From a virus: a stretch of 64,000 nucleotides of DNA. Each line of letters starts with the position of its first letter. Position 1 is the first letter of the stretch. This document shows, piece by piece, positions 38,946-53,107 of this stretch. The notes beneath the pieces are model-generated. The model searched no databases and was not told where the DNA came from. It saw only the letters and a list, made by a program, of their open reading frames with translations. The position numbers and the translations under genes are program-made. The DNA is taken from the IMG/VR virus record IMGVR_UViG_3300044972_002666, positions 1 through 64,000 of that record. One strand, given 5' to 3'.

Positions 38946-39245
38946 TTAAAAGAGAGATTTGACGTGTCTCAGAGCAACATCAAAAACGGAATTCTTAGGA
39001 TCATTAGGCCAGTTACCAACAAAGGCTAGCATCGAGGTAGCTTTTTTCTGAACCTCTTTTTCTGGAACTATGTTGCTCTTCTTGATTGCTGCAACCAATT
39101 CTTCTGCTAATTTCTTACCGCTCTTATAAATGTCAGAGATTTTTTTATCTTCTGGAATGTTAAGAAGTTCGTGCATTAGATTCTTTCTTGTTCTTGATTC
39201 GTTTAAAGATTCGGTGAAAGATTCATAGAGTGCTAGATTTTTCAT
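38946..39245 (-). CDS. Small protein with CTS-like N-terminus
   Basis: A 99-residue protein. MKNLALYESFTESLNESRTR matches the shared N-terminal pattern, with LNE|S as a possible protease site. The remainder is helical and basic (KKISDIYKSGKKLAEELVAA). It overlaps the methyltransferase gene by four bases; both carry the motif. It is possibly a packaged protein or its chaperone. Confidence 0.6.
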   Translation of the reverse strand: MKNLALYESFTESLNESRTRKNLMHELLNIPEDKKISDIYKSGKKLAEELVAAIKKSNIVPEKEVQKKATSMLAFVGNWPNDPKNSVFDVALRHVKSLF

Positions 39246-40108
39246 TTTTCAAAATTTTTATTTTCTATAATCATTTTAGCATGTGTAGTGTGCTTAATGT
39301 CTACATCGAAGTCCTTTTTGACTTCTTTTTTTAGATAGGGAAGAACAAAATTATCTTCAAAAATAATTTCATATCCCGGAGGTATTTTCTTGTATAGAGT
39401 TTCAAGAGAAAGAGGAAGATAGTTTTCTGCTACTTCTCTAGTCCAGTTATCTGTGAATTTATATTTTAGTAAAAAGTGAGCTAAGAATTTATAGCTGCTT
39501 CCAATATCATCCCACTTTTCTTCGTAAGACTTTAAGTATTTTGGATCTGCCGCAGATTTAACTTTGTCAACATCGTCCTGGAATTCGGATGCTTCTTTTC
39601 TACTCATTTCAACAGAAGGAATCATGTCTCTGATTACTATCCATTTAAAGTCTCCACCAAATACTCTATCCTCCCAGAATTTTTTAACTTCTTTAGGATG
39701 AGAATAAGAATAAACTTCGTGAATTACCGAAGATAATACAAGAGCTGGTTTATCATAAGATTCCAATTCAGATTGAACCTCACTCCAAGAATCGGTTAAT
39801 AAAACGTCTGGTCCTAGTTTAGCTCTTGCTTTAGCAAGCATAGCTTTACTAAGATCGTATCCTATCAATTTAACATCTGGATTTTTCTCCTTCATCTTGG
39901 AAAGGATCGTTCCGTCTGCACACCCAAAATCTACGATAACATCCGGATTTATAATATCTAAAAAGAATAATTTATCCGGATAGGATGCTTCCATATTTCG
40001 GTTATAAACCTCTATGTTAGCAATAGGATTTGATTCTAGAGATTCGAAAATCGATCTCAAACGGTTCAATCCGTCGGAAAATTCCTCATATAGAATTATA
40101 TTTTTCAA
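39242..40108 (-). CDS. SAM methyltransferase-like protein with CTS-like N-terminus
   Basis: A 288-residue protein. Residues 1-15 (MKNIILYEEFSDGLN) fit the shared N-terminal motif, followed by a linker. VIVDFGCADGTILSKMKEKN is SAM motif I and LIGYDLSKAMLAKARAKLG the next acidic strand; PALVLSSVIHEVYSY follows. Thus it is a small-molecule or protein methyltransferase with an extra N-terminal tag. It is encoded between bS21 and the 99-residue tag protein. If the tag is a capsid-targeting sequence, the enzyme would enter the host with the DNA. Confidence 0.72.
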   Translation of the reverse strand: MKNIILYEEFSDGLNRLRSIFESLESNPIANIEVYNRNMEASYPDKLFFLDIINPDVIVDFGCADGTILSKMKEKNPDVKLIGYDLSKAMLAKARAKLGPDVLLTDSWSEVQSELESYDKPALVLSSVIHEVYSYSHPKEVKKFWEDRVFGGDFKWIVIRDMIPSVEMSRKEASEFQDDVDKVKSAADPKYLKSYEEKWDDIGSSYKFLAHFLLKYKFTDNWTREVAENYLPLSLETLYKKIPPGYEIIFEDNFVLPYLKKEVKKDFDVDIKHTTHAKMIIENKNFEK

Positions 40109-40110
40109 AT

Positions 40111-40305
40111 TTAATTTATCTCGGACGTACGGATAGATTGCCTATACTTTGCGTCTCTTATTTGATTTCTTCTTCTCACAGATGGTTTGGTGAATTCTCT
40201 TCTCTCGTTAAGTTCGTCTTTTGTCTTACGTTCAGAAAATTTATTTTTTAGCTTCTTTAAAGCTGAATCCAGAGATTTCTCCTTCTTTAAATCTATAAAA
40301 ATCAT
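40111..40305 (-). CDS. rpsU: Ribosomal protein bS21, phage-encoded
   Basis: A 64-residue, strongly basic protein: IDLKKEKSLDSALKKLKNKF, then DELNERREFTKPSVRRRNQI. The pattern R-x-x-F-x-KPSV matches Bacteroidota bS21 (known there as the protein that, with the ribosome, hides the anti-Shine-Dalgarno sequence). bS21 is a known but uncommon phage acquisition. It would replace host bS21 in the 30S subunit and may favour phage mRNAs. It is encoded directly after the ClpC-like gene. There is no Shine-Dalgarno sequence before its ATG. Confidence 0.82.
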   Translation of the reverse strand: MIFIDLKKEKSLDSALKKLKNKFSERKTKDELNERREFTKPSVRRRNQIRDAKYRQSIRTSEIN

Positions 40306-40315
40306 GCTCTATATA

Positions 40316-42445
40316 TTACTCTTCTGAGCCCTTTTTTGGATTTGTGATTCTTACCTTTACTGGGGGTTCGATCTCAGCATCTTTGGAAGAATCTAGGGAT
40401 AGAGTAATCTTAGAACCTGATTCAACTTTCTTTTGGATAAAGAGCTCTGCAATAGTGTCTTCGATATATTTTTGAAGAAGTCTTTTCAGAGGTCTTGCTC
40501 CAAATTTGGGGTCATATCCTCTTTCTGCTATCTTTTCTTTTAGATCCTTAGAGATGACTAATTTAAACCCTAGATCTTCAAATCTCGGAGTCATCTTTTT
40601 AATTTCAACGTCTATAATCTTAATTAGATCATCTTGAGTTAGAGAATTAAAGTTTATAATTTCATCTATTCTGTTTAGAAATTCCGGAGAGAAAGTTTTT
40701 TCCAATTCTTTTCTGATCGTGATCTTTGATTCTTTTTCCACATTGCTCTTATCTAAAGATTTGAATCCTACACCTCCTCCAAATTCGGCAGCCTTTCTTT
40801 GACCAACGTTAGAAGTCAAGATGATTAAACAATTTTTAAAATTAATCTTTCTTCCTAATCCATCGGTAATCATACCCTCGTCTAGAATTTGTAATAGAGA
40901 GTTGAAAATATCCGGATGGGCCTTTTCAATCTCGTCAAATAGAACTACTGAATATGGCTTTCTTCTAACTTTCTCTGTTAATTGACCACCATCTTCGTGT
41001 CCAACATATCCTGGAGGAGCTCCAATCAATTTGGTTGAATTGAATTTCTCCATGTACTCGGACATATCAACTCTAATCATTGCATCGGCATCACCGAATA
41101 CCATTTTAGCCAATTCCTTAGCCAATTGGGTTTTACCAACTCCGGTAGGTCCTAGAAAAACAAATGATCCGATTGGACGATTTGGGTCTTTTAAACCGAT
41201 TCTATTTCTTAAAATTGCCTTTGATATTTTTTCAACTGCTTCATTTTGTCCAATAACTCTATCTCTTAAAGCTTCAGCCATTTTAGCAAGTCTTTCGTTT
41301 TCGTCCTGACTGATCTTTTGTAGAGGAATCCCAGTCATCAAAGAAACTACTTCAGCAACTTTTTCACCGTCTACGATTTTCTTCTTCTCTTTTAGCTTTT
41401 GCTCCCAGGCTTTAGTTTCCGATTCGATGCCAGCTTTAATCTTTCTTTCCAGATCTCTATATTTGGCAGCTCCTTCATAGTCCTGTTTGGTAACACACTT
41501 CTTTTTCTCCTCTGTAGTTTTCTCTAGATTCTTCTCTAAATTAACCAATGCATCAGGAACCTTAACTTGGGTTAATTGAGATCTGCTACCCGCTTCGTCT
41601 AAAGCATCTAGAGCTTTGTCTGGGAAGTTTCTGTCGGTAATGTATCTTTCTGTTAACTTAACACAATTGATGATAGCATCGTCAGTGTATTGAACATTAT
41701 GATGATCCTCGTACTTAGCCTTGATATTGTTTAGAATTATAATTGTCTCGTCTGCAGTTGGAGCTTCAATGATAACTTTTTGAAATCTTCTTTCTAGTGC
41801 TCCGTCTTTCTCGATATACTGTCTATATTCATTTAGAGTTGTTGCTCCAACACATTGAAATTCCCCTCTTGCTAGTGCAGGTTTTACCATGTTAGAAGCA
41901 TCCAAAGATCCTGATGAACCACCGGCACCAACTAGAGTGTGCAATTCATCGATGAAAATAATTACATCTGGATTTTTTCTTAGCTCATCCATAATGGACT
42001 TCATTCTCTCTTCAAACTGACCCCTGTATTTAGTTCCGGCAACAATTAGACCCATATCCAAACTAACTACTCTCTTATTTAGTAGATTTCTAGAAACCTT
42101 TCTTTGGAAAATTCTAAGTGCTAGTCCTTCGGCAATTGCTGATTTACCAACCCCGGGTTCCCCTATTAGAACTGGATTGTTCTTTTTCCTACGACCTAGA
42201 ATTTGAGAAACTCTTTCGATCTCAGAATCTCTTCCTACAATTGGATCAAGTTCTCCCTTTGCAGCTAGAGCTGTTAAATCCCTGCTAAAAGAATCTAGGG
42301 CAGGAGTGGTTGAAGAGGTTGGATTAGATTTGTAGCTTGGAACATCATCAATATCATCGTCATCGATAGGTCCCATTGAAATTTTAGGAGGAGTGTATAA
42401 GATATCTCCCAATAAGTTCTCTCCAATTATATTGTTTTCAGTCAT
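40316..42445 (-). CDS. clpC: ClpC-type AAA+ unfoldase without the N-terminal domain
   Basis: A 709-residue Hsp100 protein. D1 has Walker A GEPGVGKS (95-102) and Walker B IIFIDELH (about 165); a short UVR-like insert (CVTKQDYEGAAKYRDLERKI) is between; D2 has GPTGVGKT (about 430) and VLFDEIEKAH (about 500). A GVGF tripeptide context near 558 sits where ClpC has its ClpP-docking loop. The usual double Clp_N domain is replaced by a ~50-residue acidic tail, so it selects substrates differently. It could work with the host ClpP or as a chaperone in head assembly. Confidence 0.9.
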   Translation of the reverse strand: MTENNIIGENLLGDILYTPPKISMGPIDDDDIDDVPSYKSNPTSSTTPALDSFSRDLTALAAKGELDPIVGRDSEIERVSQILGRRKKNNPVLIGEPGVGKSAIAEGLALRIFQRKVSRNLLNKRVVSLDMGLIVAGTKYRGQFEERMKSIMDELRKNPDVIIFIDELHTLVGAGGSSGSLDASNMVKPALARGEFQCVGATTLNEYRQYIEKDGALERRFQKVIIEAPTADETIIILNNIKAKYEDHHNVQYTDDAIINCVKLTERYITDRNFPDKALDALDEAGSRSQLTQVKVPDALVNLEKNLEKTTEEKKKCVTKQDYEGAAKYRDLERKIKAGIESETKAWEQKLKEKKKIVDGEKVAEVVSLMTGIPLQKISQDENERLAKMAEALRDRVIGQNEAVEKISKAILRNRIGLKDPNRPIGSFVFLGPTGVGKTQLAKELAKMVFGDADAMIRVDMSEYMEKFNSTKLIGAPPGYVGHEDGGQLTEKVRRKPYSVVLFDEIEKAHPDIFNSLLQILDEGMITDGLGRKINFKNCLIILTSNVGQRKAAEFGGGVGFKSLDKSNVEKESKITIRKELEKTFSPEFLNRIDEIINFNSLTQDDLIKIIDVEIKKMTPRFEDLGFKLVISKDLKEKIAERGYDPKFGARPLKRLLQKYIEDTIAELFIQKKVESGSKITLSLDSSKDAEIEPPVKVRITNPKKGSEE

Positions 42446-42494
42446 AATTATATTTCTTTATTATAGATCAGATGATCCATAATGATTCATTTTA

Positions 42495-42755
42495 TTAGGA
42501 TCTAATCCAGGAATTTACTTCCTCTTGGGTTGGGTATCCAATATCTGCTTGACACAGATCACAAACTTTCTTCACAGAAAAATTATTATTTCCATGGATG
42601 TTAAAATTTTTAACCGTGTAGTCTGGATGAGGACAAGCAGATTGGATAGCTTCTAATTCCTTTTCTAGAGATTTTATATTTGTGATTATTCTATCTGTAG
42701 TATTAAAGACTTCTTGCGGATTGGAAAAATCAAGATCTGGTTTGTTTAATTCCAT
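42495..42755 (-). CDS. Small putative zinc-binding protein
   Basis: An 86-residue protein with a helical first half and SACPHPDYTVKNFNIHGN, then VKKVCDLCQADIGYP. The Cys/His spacing (CPH ... CDLC) could form a zinc ribbon. No family is recognised. It has a GAATATATAG box upstream in the gap and precedes the ClpC gene on the same strand. Confidence 0.6.
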   Translation of the reverse strand: MELNKPDLDFSNPQEVFNTTDRIITNIKSLEKELEAIQSACPHPDYTVKNFNIHGNNNFSVKKVCDLCQADIGYPTQEEVNSWIRS

Positions 42756-42773
42756 AGTTTTTTAATGGATTTA

Positions 42774-42787
42774 AACTATATATTCCC
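42774..42787 (-). promoter_or_regulatory. ATATATAG-type late promoter candidate
   Basis: GGGAATATATAGTT on the minus strand, about 20 bases before the ATG at 42755. It is similar to the GGATATATA boxes. Confidence 0.4.
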
Positions 42788-43255
42788 CTATCTGCAAATT
42801 GAGTCAGCAATAGAAATTGCCCAAGGTGATTTAGATTTCCATCTAGCCTTGATTCCAAGTGATTCCACCATACCAACTGCAGAAGCTAGTAAAGTATTAG
42901 ATTGGTATCTAGGATCTGGGTTTAAATCAATATCAATGAAGTCCGGTTTTCCGAATCCCCACATTTCTAACAGATGAGCAGCAGAAACACTGAGTTCAAC
43001 TTCTTTCCATAATCTCTCATATCTGGATTTAATTCTGGGCTCCGACTTTCTGCTGTAGATAACGTGTCCACCTTTATTCTCCTTGTGTAGAACAATTACG
43101 GTAGCATACGTGGTCTTGTCACCCATATTACTTGAGTCACAACCAATGTAAATCTTGTAGTCAGGATTTACTAAAGTCCATTCTGCTAGGTGTTTCATAG
43201 GATCAATTTTCTTACGATCACCTAGACTTCTCCATTCGTCAAACATCTGTTCCAT
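42788..43255 (-). CDS. YkuK/DUF458-like RNase H-fold protein
   Basis: A 155-residue protein. YKIYIGCDSSNMGDKTTYAT (first acidic strand), GGHVIYSRKSEP, RYERLWKEVELSVSAAHLLE, and IDIDLNPDPRY fit the YkuK RNase H-like family, as does IADSICR at the end. The role is unknown; a nuclease acting on phage or host RNA/DNA hybrids is possible. It has an ACCGTATAT-like box 8 bases upstream. Confidence 0.75.
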   Translation of the reverse strand: MEQMFDEWRSLGDRKKIDPMKHLAEWTLVNPDYKIYIGCDSSNMGDKTTYATVIVLHKENKGGHVIYSRKSEPRIKSRYERLWKEVELSVSAAHLLEMWGFGKPDFIDIDLNPDPRYQSNTLLASAVGMVESLGIKARWKSKSPWAISIADSICR

Positions 43256-43263
43256 TTCTATTT

Positions 43264-43273
43264 AATATACGGC
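43264..43273 (-). promoter_or_regulatory. GCCGTATATT box upstream of YkuK-like gene
   Basis: GCCGTATATT on the minus strand, close (8 bases) to the ATG at 43255. It is a variant of the ACCGTATAT box. Confidence 0.4.
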
Positions 43274-43300
43274 ATTTTTAAAAAAATTTCGGTCGTACTT

Positions 43301-43309
43301 GATATATAA
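43301..43309 (+). promoter_or_regulatory. GATATATAA-type late promoter candidate
   Basis: GATATATAA, 20 bases before the ATG at 43329, with a poly-A-rich leader. Confidence 0.5.
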
Positions 43310-43328
43310 CAAAAAAGAAAAAAAATAT

Positions 43329-43904
43329 ATGGCGGACAACGTATTAAATCTAAGTGCCTTTGGTGAAATTATAGAACCTGCAGGTAAAAGAAAATATAAC
43401 CCAGAACAACCCAAAGGTCCGGAGGTAGAGACTGATGCGGAAATTATCCCTCTAAAACCTATTAGTATTCCCAAAACTCCTAGTGCAGCTCCAGATAAGA
43501 CCCAAACCCCTAGCTCTAAAACAAGCCAGGTTGCAAGTAGGGTTCTTCAAAATATGACTCAAGCAAAACTTTTGCATTGGCAGACCAATTCATATTCCGA
43601 GCACAAAGCTTTAGATAATTTCTTTGAAGAGTTTATTGAAATCTCAGATACTTTGATAGAATCAATCATGGGAAAATATGGTAGACCCGTTTTTAATGAT
43701 TCGGAAAGAACATTAAAATTAGATAACTACGATTCTCCAGAATCCCCAGACGGACTTCCTAGATTCATAGCTCATTTAGATGTTTGTTACAGAGAAGAAT
43801 GTATCTCTGCATTCGATGAAAATAAAGATCCGGAAATCTTTAATATAATTCAGGAAATTTTGAGTCTGATAGATCAAACTAAATACCTTCTAAGTTTAAA
43901 ATAA
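43329..43904 (+). CDS. Dps/ferritin-like phage protein
   Basis: A 191-residue protein from ATG 43329 (MADNVLNLSAFGEIIEPAGK); an earlier TTG at 43299 lies in the promoter box. After an acidic, Pro-rich N-terminal tail, KLLHWQTNSYSEHKALDNF followed by EEFIEISDTLIESIMGKYG has the Dps-like H-W-x(5)-y-x-x-H pattern and D-x-x-x-E on the next helix. This resembles the ferritin-like DUF5856 proteins of T4-like phages (from memory). A role in iron or DNA protection is possible; an internal structural role is equally open. Confidence 0.7.
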   Translation: MADNVLNLSAFGEIIEPAGKRKYNPEQPKGPEVETDAEIIPLKPISIPKTPSAAPDKTQTPSSKTSQVASRVLQNMTQAKLLHWQTNSYSEHKALDNFFEEFIEISDTLIESIMGKYGRPVFNDSERTLKLDNYDSPESPDGLPRFIAHLDVCYREECISAFDENKDPEIFNIIQEILSLIDQTKYLLSLK

Positions 43905-43922
43905 GAAGAATAGACCTTATGT

Positions 43923-43951
43923 AAACCCAGACTTTCGAGTTTGGGTTTTTT
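43923..43951 (+). terminator. Rho-independent terminator with UUCG loop
   Basis: An 11-bp stem AAACCCAGACT / AGTTTGGGTTT (one G-U pair) with TTCG tetraloop, followed by TTT. It sits 19 bases after the Dps-like gene stop. Confidence 0.9.
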
Positions 43952-43990
43952 GTTGAGACCTTAACGGCGGCTCCTAGATAATAATAGATA

Positions 43991-44045
43991 CTTCTCCAGG
44001 GAATATAAGTAATTCTTTTAGATGGTTTTTATAGAAAAGTTTCTT
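43991..44045. repeat. Long-distance intergenic repeat, copy 2
   Basis: A 39-base segment (43991-44029) identical, with one mismatch, to 18583-18621, followed by AGAAAA-GTTTCTT. It lies in the gap between the terminator and the next late promoter; otherwise I see no gene in that ~220-base gap. Confidence 0.8.
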
Positions 44046-44095
44046 AAAATTAAAAAATAATTGAAATATTTCAAACAAAAGATTTTGATGTGACT

Positions 44096-44106
44096 GGGAT
44101 ATATAA
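44096..44106 (+). promoter_or_regulatory. GGGATATATAA-type late promoter candidate
   Basis: GGGATATATAA, 18 bases before the ATG at 44125. It is nearly the same as the box between 47082 and 47537. Confidence 0.5.
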
Positions 44107-44124
44107 ACAAATTAATTTAAATCA

Positions 44125-44871
44125 ATGGCAAAAATTTTATCTTTCGATGAATTTCATCTAAAAAATAACGAGGCAGACTTATTTGGTGTAACTACCTCTC
44201 CATCCGGAAACCTCCCTCCCGGGTACAGAGAAGATGATTATAGAGAAGTTGAGGATCTTAGAGGAATCAATCCCTCCAAGCACAACTTAAAATTAACATC
44301 TACAGATTTTCTTGAGTTTGCAACATTAAAAGATCAAAAAACAGGTAAAAACTACATTTTCTATTTTGATTCAACCTCTCCGGAGTTCGAGGAAAATTAC
44401 AAGATTTGGGACGAAGATGCTCAAGAATACCAAGATCCAGATTCAATGGGAATAGAAGCTGCTGCTAACGACGTTCCGGTGATGGAAATAGGATTTGGAA
44501 CAGACGATTGGGAAAATTCAGAAAAACCATTAGTTGAACTGGATGAGGAATTAACCGATGATATGATCGAAGAATTTAATGTTTTCATCGGTCAAGGAGG
44601 AGCATCTAGAAGAGATAAAATAAAAGTCCAGGAGGAATTGAAAAAGATTTTATCAGAAATTAAATTGACAACCGAAAGCTTAGAATTTGAGTTTCCGGAA
44701 GAAATTTTAGAATCTGAAGGAATTCATCCGGCGATTAGAGAAAAATTGTTAGCATATTTAAAAGATAACACTGACGCAACATATCCAGAAGCTAAGAAAT
44801 TCATCAAAGAAAAAATAGCTGGATGGAATTTAACTGCAGAAGATTTCGAAGAAGCAAAAAAACTTTTATAA
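44125..44871 (+). CDS. Acidic protein with CTS-like N-terminus
   Basis: A 248-residue, Glu/Asp-rich protein. The N-terminus MAKILSFDEFHLKNNEADLF fits the shared motif. The middle is globular (THKLTSTDFLEFATLKD-like region KHNLKLTSTDFLEFATLKDQ) and the C-terminal half is helical with potential [LI]-x-E sites (ILESEG). No enzyme motif is seen. It begins a small + strand operon with two more motif-bearing genes; a late-type box is upstream. Confidence 0.65.
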   Translation: MAKILSFDEFHLKNNEADLFGVTTSPSGNLPPGYREDDYREVEDLRGINPSKHNLKLTSTDFLEFATLKDQKTGKNYIFYFDSTSPEFEENYKIWDEDAQEYQDPDSMGIEAAANDVPVMEIGFGTDDWENSEKPLVELDEELTDDMIEEFNVFIGQGGASRRDKIKVQEELKKILSEIKLTTESLEFEFPEEILESEGIHPAIREKLLAYLKDNTDATYPEAKKFIKEKIAGWNLTAEDFEEAKKLL

Positions 44872-44873
44872 AA

Positions 44874-45248
44874 ATGGGAATCAATATTAAAGAATATGGT
44901 GAGTTTTTGAACGAATCTATGGATCCTAAATCCGCTACAGATAATATCATTGATATAGTTACTTCTGGGATGGGTTGGATAGATCCGAAATATGCCATAG
45001 AAATGTTTATAAATCTAACCGGTTTAGAAGAAGAAGATTTTGAAGTTGATAAAATGCTTGGATCCCTAATGGATTTAGATCTTCTTTACTACGAGGATAA
45101 AACCGTTTCTAATCATAAAGGTAAGAAAGTGAAATTAGAAGATCCTTATTTAACCGAATATCCAGAGAGATCTAGCGACAACGGAAAATATCCGGGAGCC
45201 ATGGAATCTTTAATTTTTAAAATTAAAAAATTGGATGAGTTTCACTAA
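44874..45248 (+). CDS. Small protein with CTS-like N-terminus
   Basis: A 124-residue protein from ATG 44874 (MGINIKEYGEFLNESMDPKS). An earlier ATG at 44823 lies inside the previous gene, while 44874 is two bases after its stop and gives the shared N-terminal motif with LNE|S. The rest is acidic (GLEEEDFEVDKMLGSLMDLD). It overlaps the start of the next gene by 14 bases. Function is unknown. Confidence 0.62.
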   Translation: MGINIKEYGEFLNESMDPKSATDNIIDIVTSGMGWIDPKYAIEMFINLTGLEEEDFEVDKMLGSLMDLDLLYYEDKTVSNHKGKKVKLEDPYLTEYPERSSDNGKYPGAMESLIFKIKKLDEFH

Positions 45249-45993
45249 GTCTTTTGCTGATTTTATTTCCGAATCTGAGGGTTTTCTTTTCGAAGGAAAG
45301 TATGACAGATTAGTTGGTCAAATTTCAGCCGATGCTATGAAACTCATAAAAGATAGTAATACACCAAATGGTGAATATGAAGGAGTAAAAATTAGGTACA
45401 CCGAAAAAGACGATGTTCCAAGTTTTGAAACTCTAATAGACGACATGCAATTCTTGGACGTTGGAAACTATTTAGATCCGGGTACAAATCTTGACGTCTT
45501 TGTTAAATTGGTTATCGTAAGGGACGAAGCTCCTACATACACCGAATCTTTTATTCTGGACGGTAATGCAGACGAGGACCCAGCAATTCTCTATATTGAA
45601 CTTACTGTAAATCCTGCTACTGAACCTCAATGTTATGTAGAACTTGCACCAGAGTTGAGAAATTTAATCAGACATGAGATAGAGCATTTAACCCAGAGAG
45701 GATGGAATACTATTCCTGCTAAGGCAATGAAGAGAAATTATGCTCAGAGGATTAAAATCCAATCAAATCCAGAAAACTATTATAAGTACTATAAACTAAA
45801 AGATGAGGTTGATGCTAATCTACATGGAATCTATGCAGAGGCAAAAACTAGAAAAAGACCTTTTCAAGAAATGATCATCAAATTCTTAAATGATAGAATA
45901 GCTAAAGGAATTGTTCCTGCTAACAAGAAACAAGAAATCTACACTCTCTATAAGAATAGAGCTAAAAAGATTGGTGGTTTACCAGATCTTTAA
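45235..45993 (+). CDS. Putative zinc metallopeptidase-like protein with CTS-like N-terminus
   Basis: A 252-residue protein. MSFTKSFADFISESEGFLF fits the shared motif (ISE|S). The RHEIEHLTQ segment has HExxH (HEIEH) after a helix-like stretch, the signature of zincin metalloproteases; the third ligand is not evident. A basic helical C-terminus follows. It overlaps the preceding gene by 14 bases. If it is packaged in the head, it could be a protease acting in the host or during capsid maturation. The peptidase role is inferred. Confidence 0.65.
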   Translation: MSFTKSFADFISESEGFLFEGKYDRLVGQISADAMKLIKDSNTPNGEYEGVKIRYTEKDDVPSFETLIDDMQFLDVGNYLDPGTNLDVFVKLVIVRDEAPTYTESFILDGNADEDPAILYIELTVNPATEPQCYVELAPELRNLIRHEIEHLTQRGWNTIPAKAMKRNYAQRIKIQSNPENYYKYYKLKDEVDANLHGIYAEAKTRKRPFQEMIIKFLNDRIAKGIVPANKKQEIYTLYKNRAKKIGGLPDL

Positions 45994-46190
45994 TTCTTAA
46001 TAATTTTGATTTTGTCAGGAAGAACTTCCTGAATTTTAGACACGGTGTAATTAGTACACACCTTCTTTTTTTCGTTGTAAACTGAAACTAGAATATGCCC
46101 AGGTTCAGTAATATAAATGTCTTTGATGATGTGAGGATCCTCACTTCCGTCGACTTTGACCTTAAAGATATGAGTATCTTTTCTGATCAT
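45990..46190 (-). CDS. Small protein of unknown function
   Basis: A 66-residue basic, beta-rich protein (MIRKDTHIFKVKVDGSEDPH...). No family is recognised. It is convergent with the zincin-like gene and abuts the flavodoxin-like gene without a gap, so it is likely its co-transcribed partner. Confidence 0.5.
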   Translation of the reverse strand: MIRKDTHIFKVKVDGSEDPHIIKDIYITEPGHILVSVYNEKKKVCTNYTVSKIQEVLPDKIKIIKN

Positions 46191-47075
46191 TTATTTCCAG
46201 TTTAATTTAGATATAAAACTGCTAAAGTCTGAAACCTTGACGTTAGTAAATTTACTCTCGGTGGATTCTTTAACCAAACCACCTTCTTTTTTAATGGTTT
46301 CTTCTTTGTTTGGAATTTCCATCCCCCAAGATTGTTCAAAAGAACTTGAAGATTCCTGGTACGATCTTTGTTCTTCGTCGTCTGTATCTCTAGTGAATTG
46401 CCATCCCATAAATAGTTCTTCGGGTGTTTCAAATCCGAAGAAATTCAAAACGTGATACTGAACCTCTAAAGATTCTTGAACTCTCCAATTTTGGCCTAGC
46501 AGAACCATTCCTGCTTTTTTATTTTTAACTGTATTTTGGCCATTATATGTTGTATAAGAGCTTTCTATCCAGTCAAGTCTTTCGATTAATTTTTGATAAA
46601 TTGCATTTGGATTTCCCCATCTGTTGGAAGCAAAGAATATAACAGCATCAGAGTTATACAATTCATTTGCTATTTTCCATAATTCGTCGTCTTTATGATC
46701 CAGAGAGGCCCAGCATTTCAAATGACCATGGGGATTTTTTTCAGGATCCTTTAATTTAGATTTAGGAGATCCACACATATTCCCCTTCAGCTCACTAACA
46801 CATCCAAGACAATTGTAGATTTTAAGTTTGGCAGCATCCATTGTTACTACCTCTACTCCTTTTTCTTTTAGAAGATCTGCTAAGTGCTCTGCGAGTCTAG
46901 TCGATTTTGGTTTTTCTCCCTTGCTTGAAATGTATTCACCACGATTGCTAGTGGTAATAAAGAGAACCCTTTTCTCACCAGATAATGTGGTAAGAAAGGG
47001 GTAAATATTTTCCATCTCAGGACCATATTTAACTTGGATGTTTCCATCCCCTAGTATGCTTGGCTGATCTGGCAT
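46191..47075 (-). CDS. NADPH-dependent FMN reductase/flavodoxin-like protein
   Basis: A 294-residue protein. The flavodoxin-like core is RVLFITTSNRGEYISSKGEK, KSTRLAEHLADLLKEKGVEV, and VIFFASNRWGNPNAIYQKLI (FMN phosphate- and ring-binding loops). The extension before residue 28 and the ~80-residue tail (DEEQRSYQESSSSFEQSWGM) are unusual. It may reduce flavin or quinone; the role in infection is unknown. It follows the acidic CTS gene on the same strand. Confidence 0.72.
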   Translation of the reverse strand: MPDQPSILGDGNIQVKYGPEMENIYPFLTTLSGEKRVLFITTSNRGEYISSKGEKPKSTRLAEHLADLLKEKGVEVVTMDAAKLKIYNCLGCVSELKGNMCGSPKSKLKDPEKNPHGHLKCWASLDHKDDELWKIANELYNSDAVIFFASNRWGNPNAIYQKLIERLDWIESSYTTYNGQNTVKNKKAGMVLLGQNWRVQESLEVQYHVLNFFGFETPEELFMGWQFTRDTDDEEQRSYQESSSSFEQSWGMEIPNKEETIKKEGGLVKESTESKFTNVKVSDFSSFISKLNWK

Positions 47076-47081
47076 TTTTAA

Positions 47082-47474
47082 TTAGTCTTCGTCTTCTTCG
47101 TCTTCGTCTTCAGTTTCAACTTCTACCTCGTCTGGTGAAACTTGGATTTCCATCCCCATTTCTTCGTGACCTTCTTCGTGGTCTTCCCCGTGTTCTTCCC
47201 CTTCATGTCCCATTTCAATAGAGTTAGATAAGAAGTGATAAACCTCCTCAACGTCATCTACTGATGTAGCAATGTGATCTAAAGCCCATCCGTGACCGTC
47301 TGCAAGAATACCATCGACTTTAACAGGATCTAATTCAATCAATTCTTCAATTGCATTTTTAAGCGTGTGAAGATTTTGAAAGAACATGTAGTTCTGCATT
47401 TCTCCGTGTCCTTCGTGGATTTCTTGGGATGGAACTTCGGAATTAAAGTCCTCAAAAAATTTAATGTTTTTCAT
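47082..47474 (-). CDS. Acidic His-rich protein with CTS-like N-terminus
   Basis: A 130-residue protein. MKNIKFFEDFNSEVPSQEIH fits the shared motif. The C-terminal third is very acidic with His pairs (GEEHGEDHEEGHEEMG, then EDEDEEDED), a composition known for metal-binding or DNA-mimic proteins. It shares a palindromic promoter region with the divergent MoxR gene. It may be a metal-buffering packaged protein; unproven. Confidence 0.6.
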   Translation of the reverse strand: MKNIKFFEDFNSEVPSQEIHEGHGEMQNYMFFQNLHTLKNAIEELIELDPVKVDGILADGHGWALDHIATSVDDVEEVYHFLSNSIEMGHEGEEHGEDHEEGHEEMGMEIQVSPDEVEVETEDEDEEDED

Positions 47475-47492
47475 AATTCGTTTTTGTTTGTT

Positions 47493-47504
47493 GATATATA
47501 TCCC
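47493..47504. promoter_or_regulatory. Palindromic GGGATATATATC box serving both directions
   Basis: Plus strand reads GATATATATCCC, minus strand GGGATATATATC. It sits between the divergent genes 47082 (-) and 47537 (+), so one box could supply both late transcripts. Confidence 0.5.
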
Positions 47505-47536
47505 AAATTAAAAATTAAAAAATCAATAAAACCAAA

Positions 47537-49090
47537 ATGGGAAAAAGAGTATTTAGCTTCGATGATTATGTAAACAACAGAAGCACAACAAACGAATCAA
47601 GATTTGGAGATTTTCTCTCTAAAGCCGGTGGATGGATAGCTAGAATCGCAAAGGCTATCAAAGATGGTATTATCAAAATGATTCCTGCAGGTCCAAAAAA
47701 AGGAACACCTTCAGTTACTTATTTTGACCCAGCAAACGGAAATATAGTTTCTCAGATTAATAATCTATATAAAGGAACAGAATTTGCAAAGATGAATCCT
47801 GTCAATGAGTCTTTAATATCTGACCTAGATGAAGCTCAAGTTCCTCTGGAATATACAGGAGAAGATCAAACAGTTAGAAACGTGGACGCTACTGAACTTA
47901 AGAGCATGTTAGGTAAACTTTACAGATCTAAACAAAGAGGAGGTAGAGCAAAACCTATCTTCATCTACGGAGCTCCAGGTATAGGAAAAACCCAAATCGT
48001 TGGTCAAGCAGCTCAAGCAGCCGGAGTTCCTATGCTTAACTTAGACTTGCAATTTATGTCACCGGAAGACTTTTTAGGAATACCTAAAGTTGTTGATATT
48101 GAAGAACCTAAATATGGAGAAGAAGGAAGATTAATTTCTGCAGGTAAAGGAATAACAAGATCAAATCCTCCTATCGTTTTACCTACGGACAATGGACCAG
48201 AAGGTAAAGGTGGATTTATATTCATGGACGAGATGAACAGAGCAAACAAATATATTTTGAATGCTATCATGCAGTTCGTTCAAATGGGTAGAGTTGGAAC
48301 TTATCAATTACCTGATAAATGGGTTATCGTAGCAGCTGGTAACAGACCAGAAGACGTTAGCGGATCTGGAGAAGTTGCAGAATTTGACTTTGCTATGGCA
48401 GACAGATTCAATATCGTTAACTTTGTTCCTGACGTTGAATCTTGGTCTAAATGGGCTAAATCAAAACCAGGGGATTTCGAACCAGAAATTGTTGGATTCG
48501 TAGAAAGAAATCCAGAATTATTCCACTACTTAGATACAGAAAAAGCAACTCTTAAATTCCCAACCCCTAGATCTTGGACAGATGCAGCAGCATCTCTTAA
48601 GGATGAAATGGAAGACGAGGGAGCTACAAATTGGAGAGACCTACCAACAGATACGATCTACAACATCTACTCAGATGCTATCGGTCCATCAGCGGCAGGT
48701 AAATTAAAAGCTTATCTTGATGTTATTAGAAGAATTTCAGATAGAGATTTGGAAGATATTGTTAAGAATCCAGAAAAAGCTAAACCACTTTCAAAAGGAG
48801 CAGATTTCTCTTCAGTAGCTTATGGAGTATTTGAAATGGCTTTAAGAAAAGCTGAAGAAATGTCAGGAGGAAAAGCAACAGATCAGGATCTATTCAATAT
48901 CATGAAATACTACCAAGGTTTAAGCAATCTTGAAATCCTATCATGGGTTTATGCTAGAATCAAAGAAAAATATCCTGAATTTGGAGTAAACGAAGAAACA
49001 CTAAAAATTAAAGATACACCGGAAGGAAAGCTTAGAATTGAAGCAGCAATGATGGTAAAAGGTGGAATGAAAGATAAAGGTTTAGTATAA
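47537..49090 (+). CDS. MoxR-like AAA+ ATPase with CTS-like N-terminus
   Basis: A 517-residue protein. The N-terminus MGKRVFSFDDYVNNRSTTNES and a ~140-residue leader precede a MoxR core: Walker A YGAPGIGKTQ (about 145-152), Walker B FIFMDEMNRA (about 228-237), AAGNRPEDVSGSGEVAEFDF sensor region. The extended C-terminus is helical. MoxR ATPases act as chaperones with VWA proteins, and here a zincin and a VWA gene follow directly. The N-terminal extension fits the CTS pattern, suggesting head packaging. Confidence 0.83.
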   Translation: MGKRVFSFDDYVNNRSTTNESRFGDFLSKAGGWIARIAKAIKDGIIKMIPAGPKKGTPSVTYFDPANGNIVSQINNLYKGTEFAKMNPVNESLISDLDEAQVPLEYTGEDQTVRNVDATELKSMLGKLYRSKQRGGRAKPIFIYGAPGIGKTQIVGQAAQAAGVPMLNLDLQFMSPEDFLGIPKVVDIEEPKYGEEGRLISAGKGITRSNPPIVLPTDNGPEGKGGFIFMDEMNRANKYILNAIMQFVQMGRVGTYQLPDKWVIVAAGNRPEDVSGSGEVAEFDFAMADRFNIVNFVPDVESWSKWAKSKPGDFEPEIVGFVERNPELFHYLDTEKATLKFPTPRSWTDAAASLKDEMEDEGATNWRDLPTDTIYNIYSDAIGPSAAGKLKAYLDVIRRISDRDLEDIVKNPEKAKPLSKGADFSSVAYGVFEMALRKAEEMSGGKATDQDLFNIMKYYQGLSNLEILSWVYARIKEKYPEFGVNEETLKIKDTPEGKLRIEAAMMVKGGMKDKGLV

Positions 49091-49100
49091 TTTCTAGCTA

Positions 49101-50126
49101 ATGGAATTTAAGAAAATACATACCGATATCATAGACTCGTTTGCTAAGTTTCATGTTACCCTAGAATCAAACAGAAATTCTACTAAAGGAATTAAAGTAA
49201 TTGAAAAATTTGGCCAATATGTGGTCGAGAAAAACAGTTACGAACTTTTTGAGGGAGATGCTGATAAAGAAAATCAAGCAAGAGTAAAAGTAAATAGAAA
49301 TCTTTTATGGATCAATTCTAAGAAAGGATTCTTCGCTCAGCTACTAGCAAAATTAAACATCTACGGAAGTTCTGATCCAAGATACACAACTATGTGTACT
49401 AACGGTCTAAACATTCAATATCATCCGGATTTCGTTTTAAGCCAATCGGACGCAGCTATCAGATTTGTTTTATGCCACGAGATTCTACATTGTGTAGGTG
49501 ATCACATGACCAGAAGAGGAAATAGAAATCCTTTACTTTGGAACTATGCAGCAGATTACGCAATCAATCCAATCTTAAATGAAGAAGTAGTTCCTGGACA
49601 ATTCGAGTGGCCAAAACAACCAGATGGAAGCAGAATGGGATTGTTCGAAGAGAAATATGTCGGTATGAGAGCTGAAGATATTTACGATCTTCTAAAAGAA
49701 GACAGAGAACAGCAGAAAAAAGCAACTGAGGATTCTGGTGAATCCGAGGAATCTGGAACCCACGTTATTGATTCTGATGAAGATTTATCAGAACCGGATT
49801 CAGAAAATTCTGTAGTTCAGGACGTTAGAGACGATCAGGCAGAAGAAGAAAAAGAAATGGGAGAAGGAGGAGATAAACCAGGAGATAAACCGGGGGATAT
49901 GCCAGGAGATAAACCAGGGGATATGCCAGGAGATAAACCAGGGGATATGCCAGGTGAAGAAGAGGGGAAGGGAAAACCGGGAGACAAACCAGGAGAAGGA
50001 GACAAACCAGGAGAAGGAGAGCAGAGCATAGTTGGTAAAAGAGTTAGAATTACGGTAGGTCCCAACGCAGGTAAAATAGGGGTAGTAAAAAGTGTTCTTC
50101 CTAACGGAGATATAATAGTTGAATAA
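49101..50126 (+). CDS. DUF2201-like metallopeptidase-fold protein with KPGD repeats and KOW-like end
   Basis: A 341-residue protein. A DUF2201-type N-terminal domain shows FVLCHEILHCVGDHMTRRGN (HEILH, about 126-130) and LLWNYAADYAINPIL. A Lys-Pro-Gly-Asp repeat linker (about 255-305) follows, then a KOW-like tail (KRVRITVGPNAGKIGVVKSV). In cellular DUF2201 proteins the same chain carries a VWA domain, but here the VWA is a separate gene one base downstream. It may cooperate with the MoxR ATPase encoded before it. Confidence 0.78.
   Translation: MEFKKIHTDIIDSFAKFHVTLESNRNSTKGIKVIEKFGQYVVEKNSYELFEGDADKENQARVKVNRNLLWINSKKGFFAQLLAKLNIYGSSDPRYTTMCTNGLNIQYHPDFVLSQSDAAIRFVLCHEILHCVGDHMTRRGNRNPLLWNYAADYAINPILNEEVVPGQFEWPKQPDGSRMGLFEEKYVGMRAEDIYDLLKEDREQQKKATEDSGESEESGTHVIDSDEDLSEPDSENSVVQDVRDDQAEEEKEMGEGGDKPGDKPGDMPGDKPGDMPGDKPGDMPGEEEGKGKPGDKPGEGDKPGEGEQSIVGKRVRITVGPNAGKIGVVKSVLPNGDIIVE
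49893..49954 (+). repeat. Tandem 24-base coding repeat (KPGDMPGD units)
   Basis: 2.6 copies of a 24-base unit (GGGGATATGCCAGGAGATAA + ACCA) inside the DUF2201-like gene, with more diverged copies on both sides. They encode a flexible, acidic, Pro/Gly-rich linker. Confidence 0.9.
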
Positions 50127-50127
50127 A

Positions 50128-51081
50128 ATGCAAGTTAAAAAAGGAGAATTCGTTATAGTAGATGTTGACACTGTAGAACCAGGGCAACAGAAACCTCAAG
50201 CTGGGGATAAAAAAGAAGGAACAAGTTCACCACAGGAATTAGAAAAAGCTCCTGAAGACGTGGAAACCCCTAAATTAGATCCAAATGCAAAAACAGGTCC
50301 AGGTTACGAGAGAAATCCATCACAGGGACCCAAAACATCTACCAAGTCCTATACCTCTAAGCAAGCTATGGGATCGGGCGGAAGCAAATCAAAAGTTTCC
50401 GCGATGTGGGAAAATGCAACAAGAGCAGCTATGTCTTCTGCAGGAGCATCTCTTTCTGAAAAAGGAAGAAGACTATTGATAGATTTAAGAACAACCAAGC
50501 CAAAGATTGACTGGAAAAAAGAACTTAAAAAGTTCATGGATAGTGCCTTGAATAAATGGGAAGAAACACTACCAAATAGAAGATTTTTAGGATCTGGTGA
50601 TATTTTATACGGAAGAAAGAGAGCAGGTAAAGATACTCTTAGAACTTTAGTTCTTCCTGTAGATACCTCGGGATCTATTTCTAAGGAACAAATCAAAACC
50701 TTTATCTCTGAAGTTCTTTATCTTTCCACAAAGATGGATATAGACACAACCTATATCATCTACTGTTCAGACGATATAGATTCTATTGATATTGTTAAAA
50801 AAGGTGGTAAACCAGACTTTGGAAAGATTGCTTCTACTGGAGGTAATGCTAAAGGATTTATTCCACCGTTTGCTTGGATTCAGAAGCAGAAAATTAATCC
50901 ATCTGTAGTAATTTACTTGACAGATTCATTTGCCGAATATCCTGATAAATCCTCCTATGGAATTAACAATTACGTAAAGAGAGTTTTCTGGTTTATTTGC
51001 GAAAAAGGAAAGAATTTCAACGTACCTCCATTTGGTAAATACATTCACGTTCCGATGGACAGCAAAGGAAACTTTGTTTAA
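50128..51081 (+). CDS. VWA-domain protein (partner of MoxR/DUF2201-like proteins)
   Basis: A 317-residue protein from the ATG at 50128 (an upstream TTG at 50119 is unlikely). After a charged, Pro-rich N-terminal half, VLPVDTSGSISKEQIKTFIS has the VWA MIDAS DxSGS (about 179-183), and IYLTDSFAEYPDKSS supplies the third MIDAS residue. This matches the C-terminal half of DUF2201 proteins, here encoded separately. It is presumed to act with the MoxR ATPase and the zincin-like protein as an assembly or maturation chaperone. Confidence 0.82.
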   Translation: MQVKKGEFVIVDVDTVEPGQQKPQAGDKKEGTSSPQELEKAPEDVETPKLDPNAKTGPGYERNPSQGPKTSTKSYTSKQAMGSGGSKSKVSAMWENATRAAMSSAGASLSEKGRRLLIDLRTTKPKIDWKKELKKFMDSALNKWEETLPNRRFLGSGDILYGRKRAGKDTLRTLVLPVDTSGSISKEQIKTFISEVLYLSTKMDIDTTYIIYCSDDIDSIDIVKKGGKPDFGKIASTGGNAKGFIPPFAWIQKQKINPSVVIYLTDSFAEYPDKSSYGINNYVKRVFWFICEKGKNFNVPPFGKYIHVPMDSKGNFV

Positions 51082-51413
51082 TAAATAACTTTAATCTTAC
51101 CAGATTCACGAACGATCTGGTTTTCTACGATCTCGATATACAAAGGAACTTCTTTAAGTTCCTTTATTTTTGTTAGAACCTCTGGATCTATATCGGATTC
51201 AAATCCCACAATTTTAATTGGGTTTACTAGACAGCTACCATCTTCAAGATAGTAAATTCTAGCATCAAAATAATCCCCTTCTTTAACAGAAGAAACCTTT
51301 GAATAAGAGTTGGACACCCCTATTGCAAAATCTCCTTTTTCTAGTCTTTTCCCTCTCGGAAGAGCTAAAATATATTCGGATCCGGTCTTAAGTAGGTTTA
51401 CTGTTTGATTCAT
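51078..51413 (-). CDS. Small protein of unknown function
   Basis: A 111-residue, beta-rich protein (MNQTVNLLKTGSEYILALPR...). No family is recognised. It overlaps the end of the VWA gene by four bases (convergent) and follows the next minus gene closely. Confidence 0.55.
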   Translation of the reverse strand: MNQTVNLLKTGSEYILALPRGKRLEKGDFAIGVSNSYSKVSSVKEGDYFDARIYYLEDGSCLVNPIKIVGFESDIDPEVLTKIKELKEVPLYIEIVENQIVRESGKIKVIY

Positions 51414-51418
51414 AGGTA

Positions 51419-51949
51419 TTACTTGTTCTTATTACCCATTTTAGATTCGTATACTAAACGATTTATTGTTTTCTCTATTAACCCTTTGATTACGCTGCCA
51501 ACTCCATAAGACATGTCGTAGAGGTGTTTTACTTCACCCCTGAATATTTCAGGGAACTGTAGAAAAACTACGGGGGAGTCTGTATAGATGTTATAGGTTA
51601 AATCCCAAAGAGGGTCTCCGTCTGGAGAAGATTCTGTTTCCATCGTAGCAATAACGTCCCACCCAAATTCTATCTTCCTTTCTTCTGATAATCCTACAGA
51701 GGTTAAATCAGAAATAAGTTCGTCCAGCTCATCCGGAGATTCTTTTTTGAAAGTTAGAACTAAATCCCCTTGTCCGCTTTGATCTGCAAACCCTTCACTT
51801 TCAGCTCTTGTTACCTCTGCTGAAGTAACCACATAAGGGGTTCCGAAATTCTTCCCAACTAATTGTTGTATATGGGATTGAATTTGTTTTCCAAATCCCA
51901 ATTTATCCCCGGAGGGATTAAATGCTTCGAATAGTTCTAGATACTTCAT
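51419..51949 (-). CDS. Unknown protein with CTS-like N-terminus
   Basis: A 176-residue protein. MKYLELFEAFNPSGDKLGFG fits the shared motif at the start. The rest is a globular alpha/beta protein of unknown family. It is the second gene after the LRR-like protein in the same minus-strand operon (seven-base gap). Confidence 0.6.
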   Translation of the reverse strand: MKYLELFEAFNPSGDKLGFGKQIQSHIQQLVGKNFGTPYVVTSAEVTRAESEGFADQSGQGDLVLTFKKESPDELDELISDLTSVGLSEERKIEFGWDVIATMETESSPDGDPLWDLTYNIYTDSPVVFLQFPEIFRGEVKHLYDMSYGVGSVIKGLIEKTINRLVYESKMGNKNK

Positions 51950-51956
51950 TTATTAA

Positions 51957-53069
51957 TTAAAGTCCAACGTCATCTAAATCTGCTAGCAATTCTGCGTCTG
52001 CTTTGGTGTCCTCTGGGATTTCAATTCCTTTTAGAATTTTTTGAACCCTGAAATCCTTCCAGATTGATTTAAGACCAACTACAAAAGCTTCCCCGTTGGT
52101 TTCAATTTCTTTCTTTAAATTCGCAGGAGATAATTTTTCTCTAATTGGATCCTTTGGAGCTTTTCCGGTTTTGATGAATTCAGGATCGGTAAACATACTT
52201 AGATATCCAACTGCCCAGCTTCCAGTTCTAGCTGCTTCTTTGTAAGCATTTGTTAAAACTGAACTTTTTAATGGGTTCTTGTTGCATCTGATTCTATAAG
52301 GAGAAATTGCAGGGCTTAGAGGAATACCCTCTAGTGTATAAAGATTATTACTGTCTACATAAATGGATATAGAAGGACTTATTATACTAGGAAACCCTTC
52401 TAGAGAATCCAGATTACATCTATTAGCATAATAAATAGAGGTTACTTCCTTAGGTCCTCCTTTTAAGTTTCTTAGACCACTATTGTCGCTGCAATCAAAA
52501 TTGTCTGATAGTTCTGGTGCTCCTTCTAAAGAGGTTAATTTATTTCTATCACATTTGTATTTACCCCCTACTTTTACGGGACATCCAACTAGATTGGTTA
52601 ATTTATTACCACTGATATTAAAATCCCCAGTTACTTCAGTAGGGAATCCCTCTGATGAATCAATGCCACAATCGGAAACGTCGAAATAACCTTTTACCTT
52701 ACCAATTTTTATCCCCATTTCTATTAATTCCCCCCATTTCTCTTTATTGTAAGATGATATTTTAAATTTCCCAATTACATCAAGTCTTTCGGTTTCGGGA
52801 TTTATTGACCAAGAGGTTCCTTCATCTTCTTCACTGTAATAATCCCTTGAGATAAGGGAGTTTAGTAATACATTCTGTTTGTGGGTCAATTTTCCTGCCC
52901 AGGAAGGAGCTTCAAGTCCAATGTCAGTACAAACTTTAGTAAAATCTTTTCCTGTAGATTCACAATACTTCTGAAGAGAAGACAAGAAATTTCTCATTTC
53001 ATCTGGATTTAAAGATTCTATCTTTTCAAGCTCTTCATAGAGAGCAAAGGGTAATAACGTTTTAGCCAT
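51957..53069 (-). CDS. Leucine-rich-repeat-like protein with CTS-like N-terminus
   Basis: A 370-residue protein. The start MAKTLLPFALYEELEKIESL has the motif-like pattern. From about residue 140 to 265 there are repeats on the pattern LxxLxxxPxxVxxxxxxxxNx (for example ISGNKLTNLVGCPVKVGG, DRNKLTSLEGAPELSD, SDNSGLRNLKGGPKEV), typical of phage/bacterial LRR proteins. The C-terminus is helical. LRR proteins bind proteins, so a packaged host-interaction factor is possible. A late-type box is upstream. Confidence 0.68.
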   Translation of the reverse strand: MAKTLLPFALYEELEKIESLNPDEMRNFLSSLQKYCESTGKDFTKVCTDIGLEAPSWAGKLTHKQNVLLNSLISRDYYSEEDEGTSWSINPETERLDVIGKFKISSYNKEKWGELIEMGIKIGKVKGYFDVSDCGIDSSEGFPTEVTGDFNISGNKLTNLVGCPVKVGGKYKCDRNKLTSLEGAPELSDNFDCSDNSGLRNLKGGPKEVTSIYYANRCNLDSLEGFPSIISPSISIYVDSNNLYTLEGIPLSPAISPYRIRCNKNPLKSSVLTNAYKEAARTGSWAVGYLSMFTDPEFIKTGKAPKDPIREKLSPANLKKEIETNGEAFVVGLKSIWKDFRVQKILKGIEIPEDTKADAELLADLDDVGL

Positions 53070-53101: not shown

Positions 53102-53107
53102 AACGAA

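Follow-up and report, generated by a model that had tools for sequence, protein, structure and literature searches.

Why should a phage give a methyltransferase, an ATPase, and a peptidoglycan-binding protein much the same first residues? The question is raised by a stretch of 64,000 bases (the window throughout), bases 1-64000 of the 89,516-base virus record IMGVR_UViG_3300044972_002666, which is part of a fragment of about 89.5 kb (the contig) of a huge T4-like phage. A first-pass annotation had pointed to an N-terminal segment with two aromatic residues three positions apart, often soon followed by [LI]xE, on about twelve proteins of the window, and had compared it with the capsid-targeting sequence (CTS) that sends T4 internal proteins to the prohead. 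This T4-like reading is favored by the enrichment of the segment at N-termini, by tag-shaped scaffold repeats and a gp21-like protease in related phages, by an upstream motif, and by the residues that mutagenesis has singled out in T4. In our assessment the shared N-terminus is probably a capsid-targeting tag, by which a large cargo would be loaded into the prohead, trimmed, and delivered with the DNA. Since the tag resembles both the head label of T4 and the phages' own scaffold repeat, the heads of these phages probably carry many proteins, in an assortment that varies from phage to phage.

The N-termini that had been listed are present in the sequence, with minor corrections at two genes: MGINIKEYGEF begins at 44874, within a longer open reading frame starting at 44823, and MKNIILYEEF, encoded by gene 39242-40108, has a TTG start. 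Among the roughly twelve proteins claimed, the tag is clear at 38946, 39242, 44125, 44874, 45235, 47082, 47537, and 51419 and weaker at 15856, 19351, 19892, and 51957. The genes are as follows, a slash marking the candidate cleavage point and scores referring to the matrix described below.

15856-17217, plus strand: weakly tagged protein, MSKKFVLESFQAYLDFELNIIKE/A
19351-19884, minus strand: weakly tagged protein, MGRLLNIQDFKSFHLME
19892-22000, minus strand: tagged protein with a peptidoglycan-binding domain, MRKVYDFSTFNFIYE/A
38946-39245, minus strand: tagged protein of 99 residues, MKNLALYESFTESLNE/S, matrix score 7.0
39242-40108, minus strand: tagged methyltransferase of 288 residues, MKNIILYEEFSDGLNRLRSIFE/S
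43329-43904, plus strand: Dps-like protein (DUF5856/phrog_858), MADNVLNLSAFGEIIE, weak tag
44125-44871, plus strand: tagged protein of unknown kind, 248 residues, MAKILSFDEF, matrix score 3.9
44874-45248, plus strand: tagged protein, MGINIKEYGEFLNE/S, strict T4 shape Y-x-E-F-L-x-E
45235-45993, plus strand: tagged protein of 252 residues with an HEIEH motif, MSFTKSFADFISE/S, strict T4 shape F-x-D-F-I-x-E
47082-47474, minus strand: tagged protein of 130 residues, MKNIKFFEDFNSEVPSQEIHE/G; its homolog in the relative LR756502 starts MENIKSFDSFNE
47537-49090, plus strand: tagged MoxR-type AAA ATPase (phrog_1297), MGKRVFSFDDY
49101-50126, plus strand: DUF2201_N metallopeptidase (zincin), with a tag-like FGQYVVE/K at residues 37-43
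51419-51949, minus strand: tagged protein of unknown kind, 176 residues, MKYLELFEAF, matrix score 8.8
51957-53069, minus strand: leucine-rich repeat (LRR)-like protein, MAKTLLPFALYEELE, weak tag, NKLTSLEGxP-type repeats by eye

The methyltransferase and the MoxR ATPase thus carry the tag as had been claimed, and the supposed wall-binding protein at 19892-22000 has both the domain and the tag. The tag-like stretch of the zincin is internal, and the LRR protein was recognized by eye, has no Pfam LRR match, and is weakly tagged. It partially matches the contig at 83-85.5 kb, where the genes bear clearer tags; beyond the window, at 81052-85623 of the contig (81-86 kb), there are four further tagged genes with MKHL or MKHI starts, including relatives of the LRR-like protein.

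How far the segment is enriched was asked of genes called with a simple in-house caller on pieces of 20-50 kb taken one by one; some gene starts are wrong because the caller is simple, and genes at the cuts are lost because the pieces were called separately. Two starts among the contig's 120 genes were corrected by hand to the upstream starts of the first-pass annotation, and gene 82211 was counted in two copies. Taken alone, the plain form M-x(2-7)-[FY]xx[FY] is in modest excess on the contig (21/124 genes versus 36/526 internal stretches, p 7e-4) and shows no excess (45/1,134 N-terminal versus 47/1,134 internal) in a bacterial control of 1,134 genes near metF homologs of Bacteroidota and other bacteria. 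An unbiased motif search over N-termini found the shared start in LR756502, the 642-kb relative from which the motif was learned, spread much more widely than had been described, and rare in bacteria. Two runs, one unsupervised on the N-termini of 350 cluster representatives and one on all proteins, weighted by cluster and seeded with the aromatic pair, both yielded [HYN][LI]Kx[YF]xxF. With matrix thresholds set above 7 in LR756502 and a second relative, G008, and above 5 on the contig, 165 of 929 LR756502 N-termini match versus 6 of 2,630 internal windows (2/908, 0/728, 2/570, and 2/424), and the tagged proteins fall in 152 of 849 sequence clusters.

Since the matrix was trained on LR756502, held-out genomes weigh more. 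On the contig, 10 of 120 N-termini match versus 2 of 378 internal windows (p 2e-5), though two of the ten, 7684 and 65126, look like chance. G008 has 57/479 versus 2/1,222 (1/465, 1/405, and 0/352), and the 429-kb record G010, from the window's sister group, has 28/537 versus 2/537; the corresponding counts for G012 are 4/127 and 0/127, and the bacterial control has one match among 1,134 N-termini and one internally. An unsupervised search of G010, G012, G016, and G017 pooled gave K-x-[IL]-K-x-[YF]-x-[ED]-F-[LIV]-x-E. When 56 proteins of at least 190 residues each were aligned, a consensus run appeared only at the start, MKxLKxYxxF; this set derives from 57 listed proteins, from which three apparent chance hits (one an SbcC-like recombination protein) were dropped and to which two, L010:41808-44084 and L014:14430-15269, were added by eye. 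As in T4-type capsid targeting, a short N-terminal segment is common to proteins with unrelated mature parts.

The resemblance to T4 extends to individual positions. T4 IPIII starts MKTYQEFIAEA, and one G016 protein starts MKTYNDFIKES. In amber-suppression mutagenesis of IPIII, targeting depended mainly on residues 4 and 7 and processing on residues 8 and 10, and D in place of the cleavage-site E blocked processing (PMC9026906). Residues 4 and 7 of IPIII are the aromatic pair and residues 8 and 10 are I and E, the same positions as in the huge-phage pattern, so that aromatic residues stand where targeting is driven. The strict T4 shape, [FY]x[ED][FY][ILV]xE, occurs at N-termini, in scaffold proteins, and elsewhere 12, 11, and 7 times in LR756502, 9, 11, and 8 times in G008, 16, 0, and 3 times in G010, 9, 4, and 4 times in G012, G016, and G017 together, and 3, 0, and 1 times in T4, and at none of the 1,134 bacterial N-termini. 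The T4 matches are the N-termini of IPII, IPIII, and gene 61.1 and one site inside another protein.

Like the T4 CTS of IPI-IPIII and Alt, the huge-phage tag is N-terminal, about 10-20 residues long, and found on nonhomologous proteins, with a gp21-type protease in the relatives, and it shares with IPII and IPIII the aromatic pair three apart, often followed by [IL]xE in those relatives. It differs in its extra residues before the pair (MK[HYN][LI]Kx), in having a second form, Y-x-[IL]-F-E/S, in the protease-scaffold fusion with its tag-shaped repeats, and in its reach: T4 has a handful of such proteins, while here they make up to 18% of one genome's genes. Two T4 proteins not annotated as internal proteins came up beside these comparisons. 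Gene 61.1 (L122:18966-19130) has the CTS-like start MKTFKEFIKED, and rI.-1 (L124:9319-9705), which starts MKFSDF, is related to the window's Dps-like protein, as are aromatic-pair homologs in G008 (MKKFSDFKPVKKKIFES) and LR756502 (MSSFKKFSDI). From their N-termini, 61.1 and rI.-1 are candidates for unrecognized T4 head cargo.

What the tag might bind is suggested by the relatives' head genes. In LR756502, the neighbors of the portal and major head protein genes include one for a protein of 699 residues. It opens with an S77/gp21-like protease (S77 at 1.8e-5, below the Pfam cut-off; phrog_207 head maturation protease at 6.1e-28), and its remainder holds a run of 14-residue repeats of type NISYSEYIAENLDK, with the shape YSEYIAE. 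YSEYIAE-type repeats are found in all 80 of the related IMG/VR loci listed (L024-L103); the 76 complete proteins have 10-12 matches apiece and the 4 truncated ones 4-11. A second, wider protease scan, which partly overlaps the first list, comprised at least 80 loci; among the 45 inspected, 42 show 4-14 matches to [FYH]xx[FYH][ILVMC]x[EDNSK] and 3 yielded no complete protease gene. A gp21-like protease is also present in the records closest to the window by UvsX. Since 12 of the 30 strict matches in LR756502 are N-terminal and 11 lie in the protease-scaffold protein, tag and scaffold share one unit. The fusion is a candidate scaffold for T4-like huge phages, and a low-confidence structure model suggests long helices over its repeats. 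In the major head protein IFE/INE/LYE align as possible cleavage sites but do not fix the point of cutting, T4 being cut further on.

By this route, the tag, with its aromatic pair often followed by [ILV]xE, would mimic one 14-residue scaffold repeat, and tagged proteins, made late along with the head proteins, would be built into the prohead core by binding the scaffold. The gp21-like prohead protease fused to that scaffold would then cleave repeats and tags alike, each just behind its E, while the cargo would remain in the head with the DNA and enter the next host with it. The window phage itself would be expected to have such a fusion, the protease having been seen in its relatives.

The expectation of late expression comes from a motif of TATATA type that stands ahead of the tagged genes and is common to head genes. 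For these tests genes were counted as tagged at scores above 7 (LR756502) or at scores above 6 or a strict match (other genomes) and as untagged at 0 or below, intermediate genes being omitted. In LR756502, AATATATA occurs within 60 bases upstream of 77/165 tagged versus 72/610 untagged genes, and it precedes four of the five head-region genes inspected (portal, protease, major head protein, and peptidase gene) by 27-37 bases. Within 80 bases, 58 of its 84 occurrences before tagged genes lie at -15 to -11, as against 28 of 80 before untagged genes, where 22 lie at -30 to -26; the position near -15 in many tagged LR756502 genes (L008-L020) would give almost leaderless messages. The same motif precedes 30/68 tagged versus 60/317 untagged genes in G008 and 9/38 versus 18/396 in G010, with a weak trend in G012, G016, and G017 together (4/12 versus 16/196). 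On the contig, NATATATA stands before 9 of 17 tagged versus 5 of 102 other genes, and five of the eight tagged genes without it lie directly downstream of a tagged gene. These 17 genes were hand-picked, GATATATA was noticed before testing, and NATATATA was taken over from LR756502; one gene (82211) entered as a copy cut at a piece end, and the full copy has the motif. We infer from the sequence that the motif is a late promoter, which would make the tagged genes late along with the head genes. The motif sites upstream of tagged genes in the window are the following.

15823-15830, plus strand: late-promoter-like NATATATA motif, upstream of 15856
22026-22046, minus strand: two NATATATA motifs, upstream of 19892-22000
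43301-43308, plus strand: GATATATA motif, upstream of 43329
44098-44105, plus strand: GATATATA motif, upstream of the run 44125-44874-45235
47493-47502, no strand assigned: palindromic GATATATATC, common to the divergent tagged genes 47082 (minus) and 47537 (plus)
53093-53100, minus strand: GATATATA motif, upstream of 51957 and 51419

A candidate cleavage site also follows the tag. In LR756502, [LIVMF]xE occurs just after it in 96/165 proteins versus 82/479 control stretches drawn from those proteins; Ser comes next in 31 of the 96 versus 8 of the 82. The earlier statement that [LI]xE often follows soon after the tag holds as an enrichment in the relatives; in the window, strict T4 spacing is confined to 44874 (FLNE) and 45235 (FISE), other candidate sites lie further on (LNE-16, IFE-22, IHE-21, IKE-23, and IYE-15), and no good [LI]xE site was found in 51419, 47537, or 44125.

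Homologs of the tagged proteins point to a modular tag. Three methyltransferase homologs resemble one another only in the part that begins at residue 28-29 of the window protein, and the three N-termini ahead of it differ, though all are tag-shaped: MKNIILYEEFSDGLNRLRSIFES in the window, MKIFNWQLFLEE in LR756502, and MKLLKDYKNFLLEE in L106 (cleavage form MKLLKDYKNFLLE/E). The window MoxR protein has a long N-terminal extension unmatched by the shorter homologs of G008 and the more distant phage PA5oct; the homolog of LR756500 (32% identity) starts MSFKNFTQYSEHIS, and the protein neighboring it starts MKYIKSYENFIFEN. A G010 protein with the start MKYIKSYENFIFEN has DUF2201 zincin and VWA domains, and its residue 1 aligns with residue 31 of the zincin encoded in the window, at the stretch IEKFGQYVVEK; judging from this alignment, the window zincin start may be annotated too early. 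An LR756502 protein of PolyA_pol/tRNA nucleotidyltransferase type (MIITKYAKFLES...) has its domain from residue 40, and its untagged window homolog (58467-59198) from residue 5.

The mature parts are varied. The window's set includes the methyltransferase, MoxR ATPase, DUF2201 zincin, HEIEH, LRR-like, peptidoglycan-binding, and Dps-like proteins, and the 10 tagged proteins scanned from G010 and G012 include a zincin with VWA, two LRR proteins, and an ATP-grasp protein. Most of the 56 scanned from LR756502 have no known domain; the others include an RNA ligase, PolyA_pol, and phage lysozyme, besides Nudix, HNH, and primase family matches that were not traced to a member, while a DHH match (below the cut-off) and the methyltransferase matches stem from the two by-eye additions, L010:41808-44084 and L014:14430-15269. 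The tagged RNA ligase (L017:41690-42961) and the tagged PolyA_pol/tRNA nucleotidyltransferase-type protein (L019:47869-49053) together make a possible packaged tRNA-repair kit. We put at about even chances a wider proposal of open-ended delivery, in which any late gene gaining a scaffold-mimicking N-terminus would be loaded, giving more than 100 proteins (about 18% of LR756502 genes) per kind of head. Under this proposal some of the cargo would recur (the MoxR-zincin pair, LRR proteins, the Dps-like protein, and a methyltransferase), and the rest would change fast and be aimed at the host; the RNA ligase and the tRNA nucleotidyltransferase, in this second part, could mend tRNAs that host defense has cleaved.

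Several results weigh against capsid targeting as the role of the tag. Nearest to hand, no S77 match was found on the window's own 89.5-kb fragment, GATATATA is not enriched before tagged genes in G010 (2/38 versus 18/396), and phage lysozyme (L017:39926) and the primase family are odd for injected cargo. The likeness to the scaffold is imperfect, the second aromatic being mostly F in tags and Y in scaffold repeats; the strict pattern finds no scaffold repeat in G010, because the repeats there use H and looser forms, and the structure model of the fusion is poor, with a mean predicted local distance difference test (pLDDT) score of 55. Applied to the whole of T4, the LR756502 matrix fails, ranking IPIII 88, IPII 173, and IPI 255 of 265, because the residues ahead of the aromatic pair differ; carry-over to T4 is limited to the aromatic pair plus [ILV]xE, and a looser [FY]xx[FY][ILVMF]xE has 3 N-terminal matches in T4 versus 14 elsewhere, no significant enrichment. 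The matrix shows no excess in G016 (1/59 versus 1/59), G017 (1/54 versus 0/54), Lak-A1 (1/72 versus 0/72), or PA5oct (0/385 versus 1/385); in 50 kb each, GAP32 has 0 N-terminal and 1 internal match and S-SKS1, phiKZ, and crAss001 have 0 each, and the looser pattern is N-terminal 0 times in phiKZ, crAss001, and GAP32 and once in S-SKS1. Some of these matrix-negative phages nonetheless have gp21-like proteases.

PA5oct, whose record carries virion-proteomics marks, lacks the tag and so lends no support; the strict pattern occurs there 0 times at N-termini and 2 times elsewhere, and the looser one once at an N-terminus. It was tried as a proxy for virion proteomics and rejected: its commonest N-terminal motif is a different one, MDLILxLQ-like, which is negatively linked to virion detection (16/178 versus 71/268) and is shared by many small genes toward the genome ends. 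The sample omitted positions 50001-60000 and three marked genes that ran across the end of a piece; of the 90 genes entered as marked by electrospray ionization tandem mass spectrometry (ESI-MS/MS), 87 could be matched to called genes. As a hint only, the PA5oct MoxR homolog is marked as detected in the virion and the zincin homolog is unmarked.

Among alternatives, the one that survives best is that the tag recruits proteins to the scaffold core merely to help assembly or fill space, and that these are destroyed or driven out as the head matures and do not reach a host. It draws on the tag's resemblance to a scaffold unit that, by analogy with T4, the protease would destroy, yet several tagged proteins are recognizable enzymes (methyltransferase, MoxR ATPase, zincin, RNA ligase, and poly(A)/tRNA nucleotidyltransferase family). 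Moreover, LR756502 genes for which 400 kb of G008 gave no reciprocal best hit are tagged more often than those with one (134/653 versus 31/283, although the incompleteness of G008 may explain the missing hit for part of the 653), which better fits a changing, host-directed cargo, and we consider the core-filler explanation unlikely. Less probable again is that the tag addresses some place unrelated to the head, such as a phage compartment, or a membrane by way of a short amphipathic helix. A lysine-rich start with aromatics would, on general knowledge, also suit membrane binding, but the tag shape recurs 10-12 times in the head scaffold and matches the T4 targeting residues, a gp21-type cleavage site often follows it, and tagged and head genes have the upstream motif in common. 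Hardly credible is an origin of the shared starts in duplication or recombination of 5' ends, or in some feature of translation initiation, the segment doing nothing in the protein itself. MKHLK starts often use the same 15 bases (ATGAAACACTTAAAG in 11/28), and LR756502 has an AT-rich motif at -15, but ten DNA versions of MKHLK occur among the 28, the tag's Y, F, and I have near-normal codon use, the window's sister group retains the shape with other residues, and in 21 of 283 reciprocal-best-hit pairs the LR756502 and G008 members both have the tag, several of the 21 discordant pairs keeping the tag by eye just below threshold.

Taken as a capsid-targeting tag, the segment can be set beside two other routes into phage heads. 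In SPN3US and phiKZ, many head proteins are loaded and trimmed by the prohead protease (PMC5694885), a likeness in giant size, number of head proteins, and trimming; unlike these ejection-protein propeptides, which run to about 100 residues or more, the segment shared here spans about 10-20 residues, and phiKZ shows no enrichment of the huge-phage motif in 50 kb. The first 30 residues of P1 DarB suffice to direct a foreign protein to the head, and the Dar proteins are described there as having no consensus and apparently no separate scaffold (PMC9024508); the DarB signal is like the tag in being N-terminal and unlike it in this lack of consensus. Among the open-licence papers listed by searches on capsid targeting, prohead protease, huge or jumbo phages, and Mahaphage, we recognized none as describing such tags in huge phages, and a term search of a 2026 jumbo-phage review gave no instance of "capsid targeting" in the text covered (PMC13282480). 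The tag would let virion cargo be read from sequence alone among the unknown genes of huge phages, cargo that would act at the first moment of infection, when counter-defense is most needed, and it suggests a mode of action for the T4 tag, namely mimicry of a repeat in the scaffold.

The source of the window can be narrowed further. An IMG/VR contig of 89,451 bases encodes proteins identical to the window's in all three cases probed; it was the sole return for MoxR and the zincin, and the methyltransferase returned it together with one contig at 43%. The window encodes a UvsX-like recombinase and a DnaB-like helicase, and among 12 records searched its UvsX is nearest to those of G017, G012, G010, and G016 (46-49% identity), with LR756502 less near (40%). 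The protease of G010 is 100% identical to that of LR756500 (462 kb). At 53108-54067 the window has metF, for methylenetetrahydrofolate reductase, with 62% identity to Bacteroidota; it hints at the host phylum and fits the Bacteroidetes hosts that a huge-phage survey predicted for its genomes above 634 kb, which it put in the Mahaphage clade (PMC7162821). A long gene block at 22361-36567 has the look of sugar modification or glycosyl transfer, and several of its homologs lie at 442-466 kb in LR756502.

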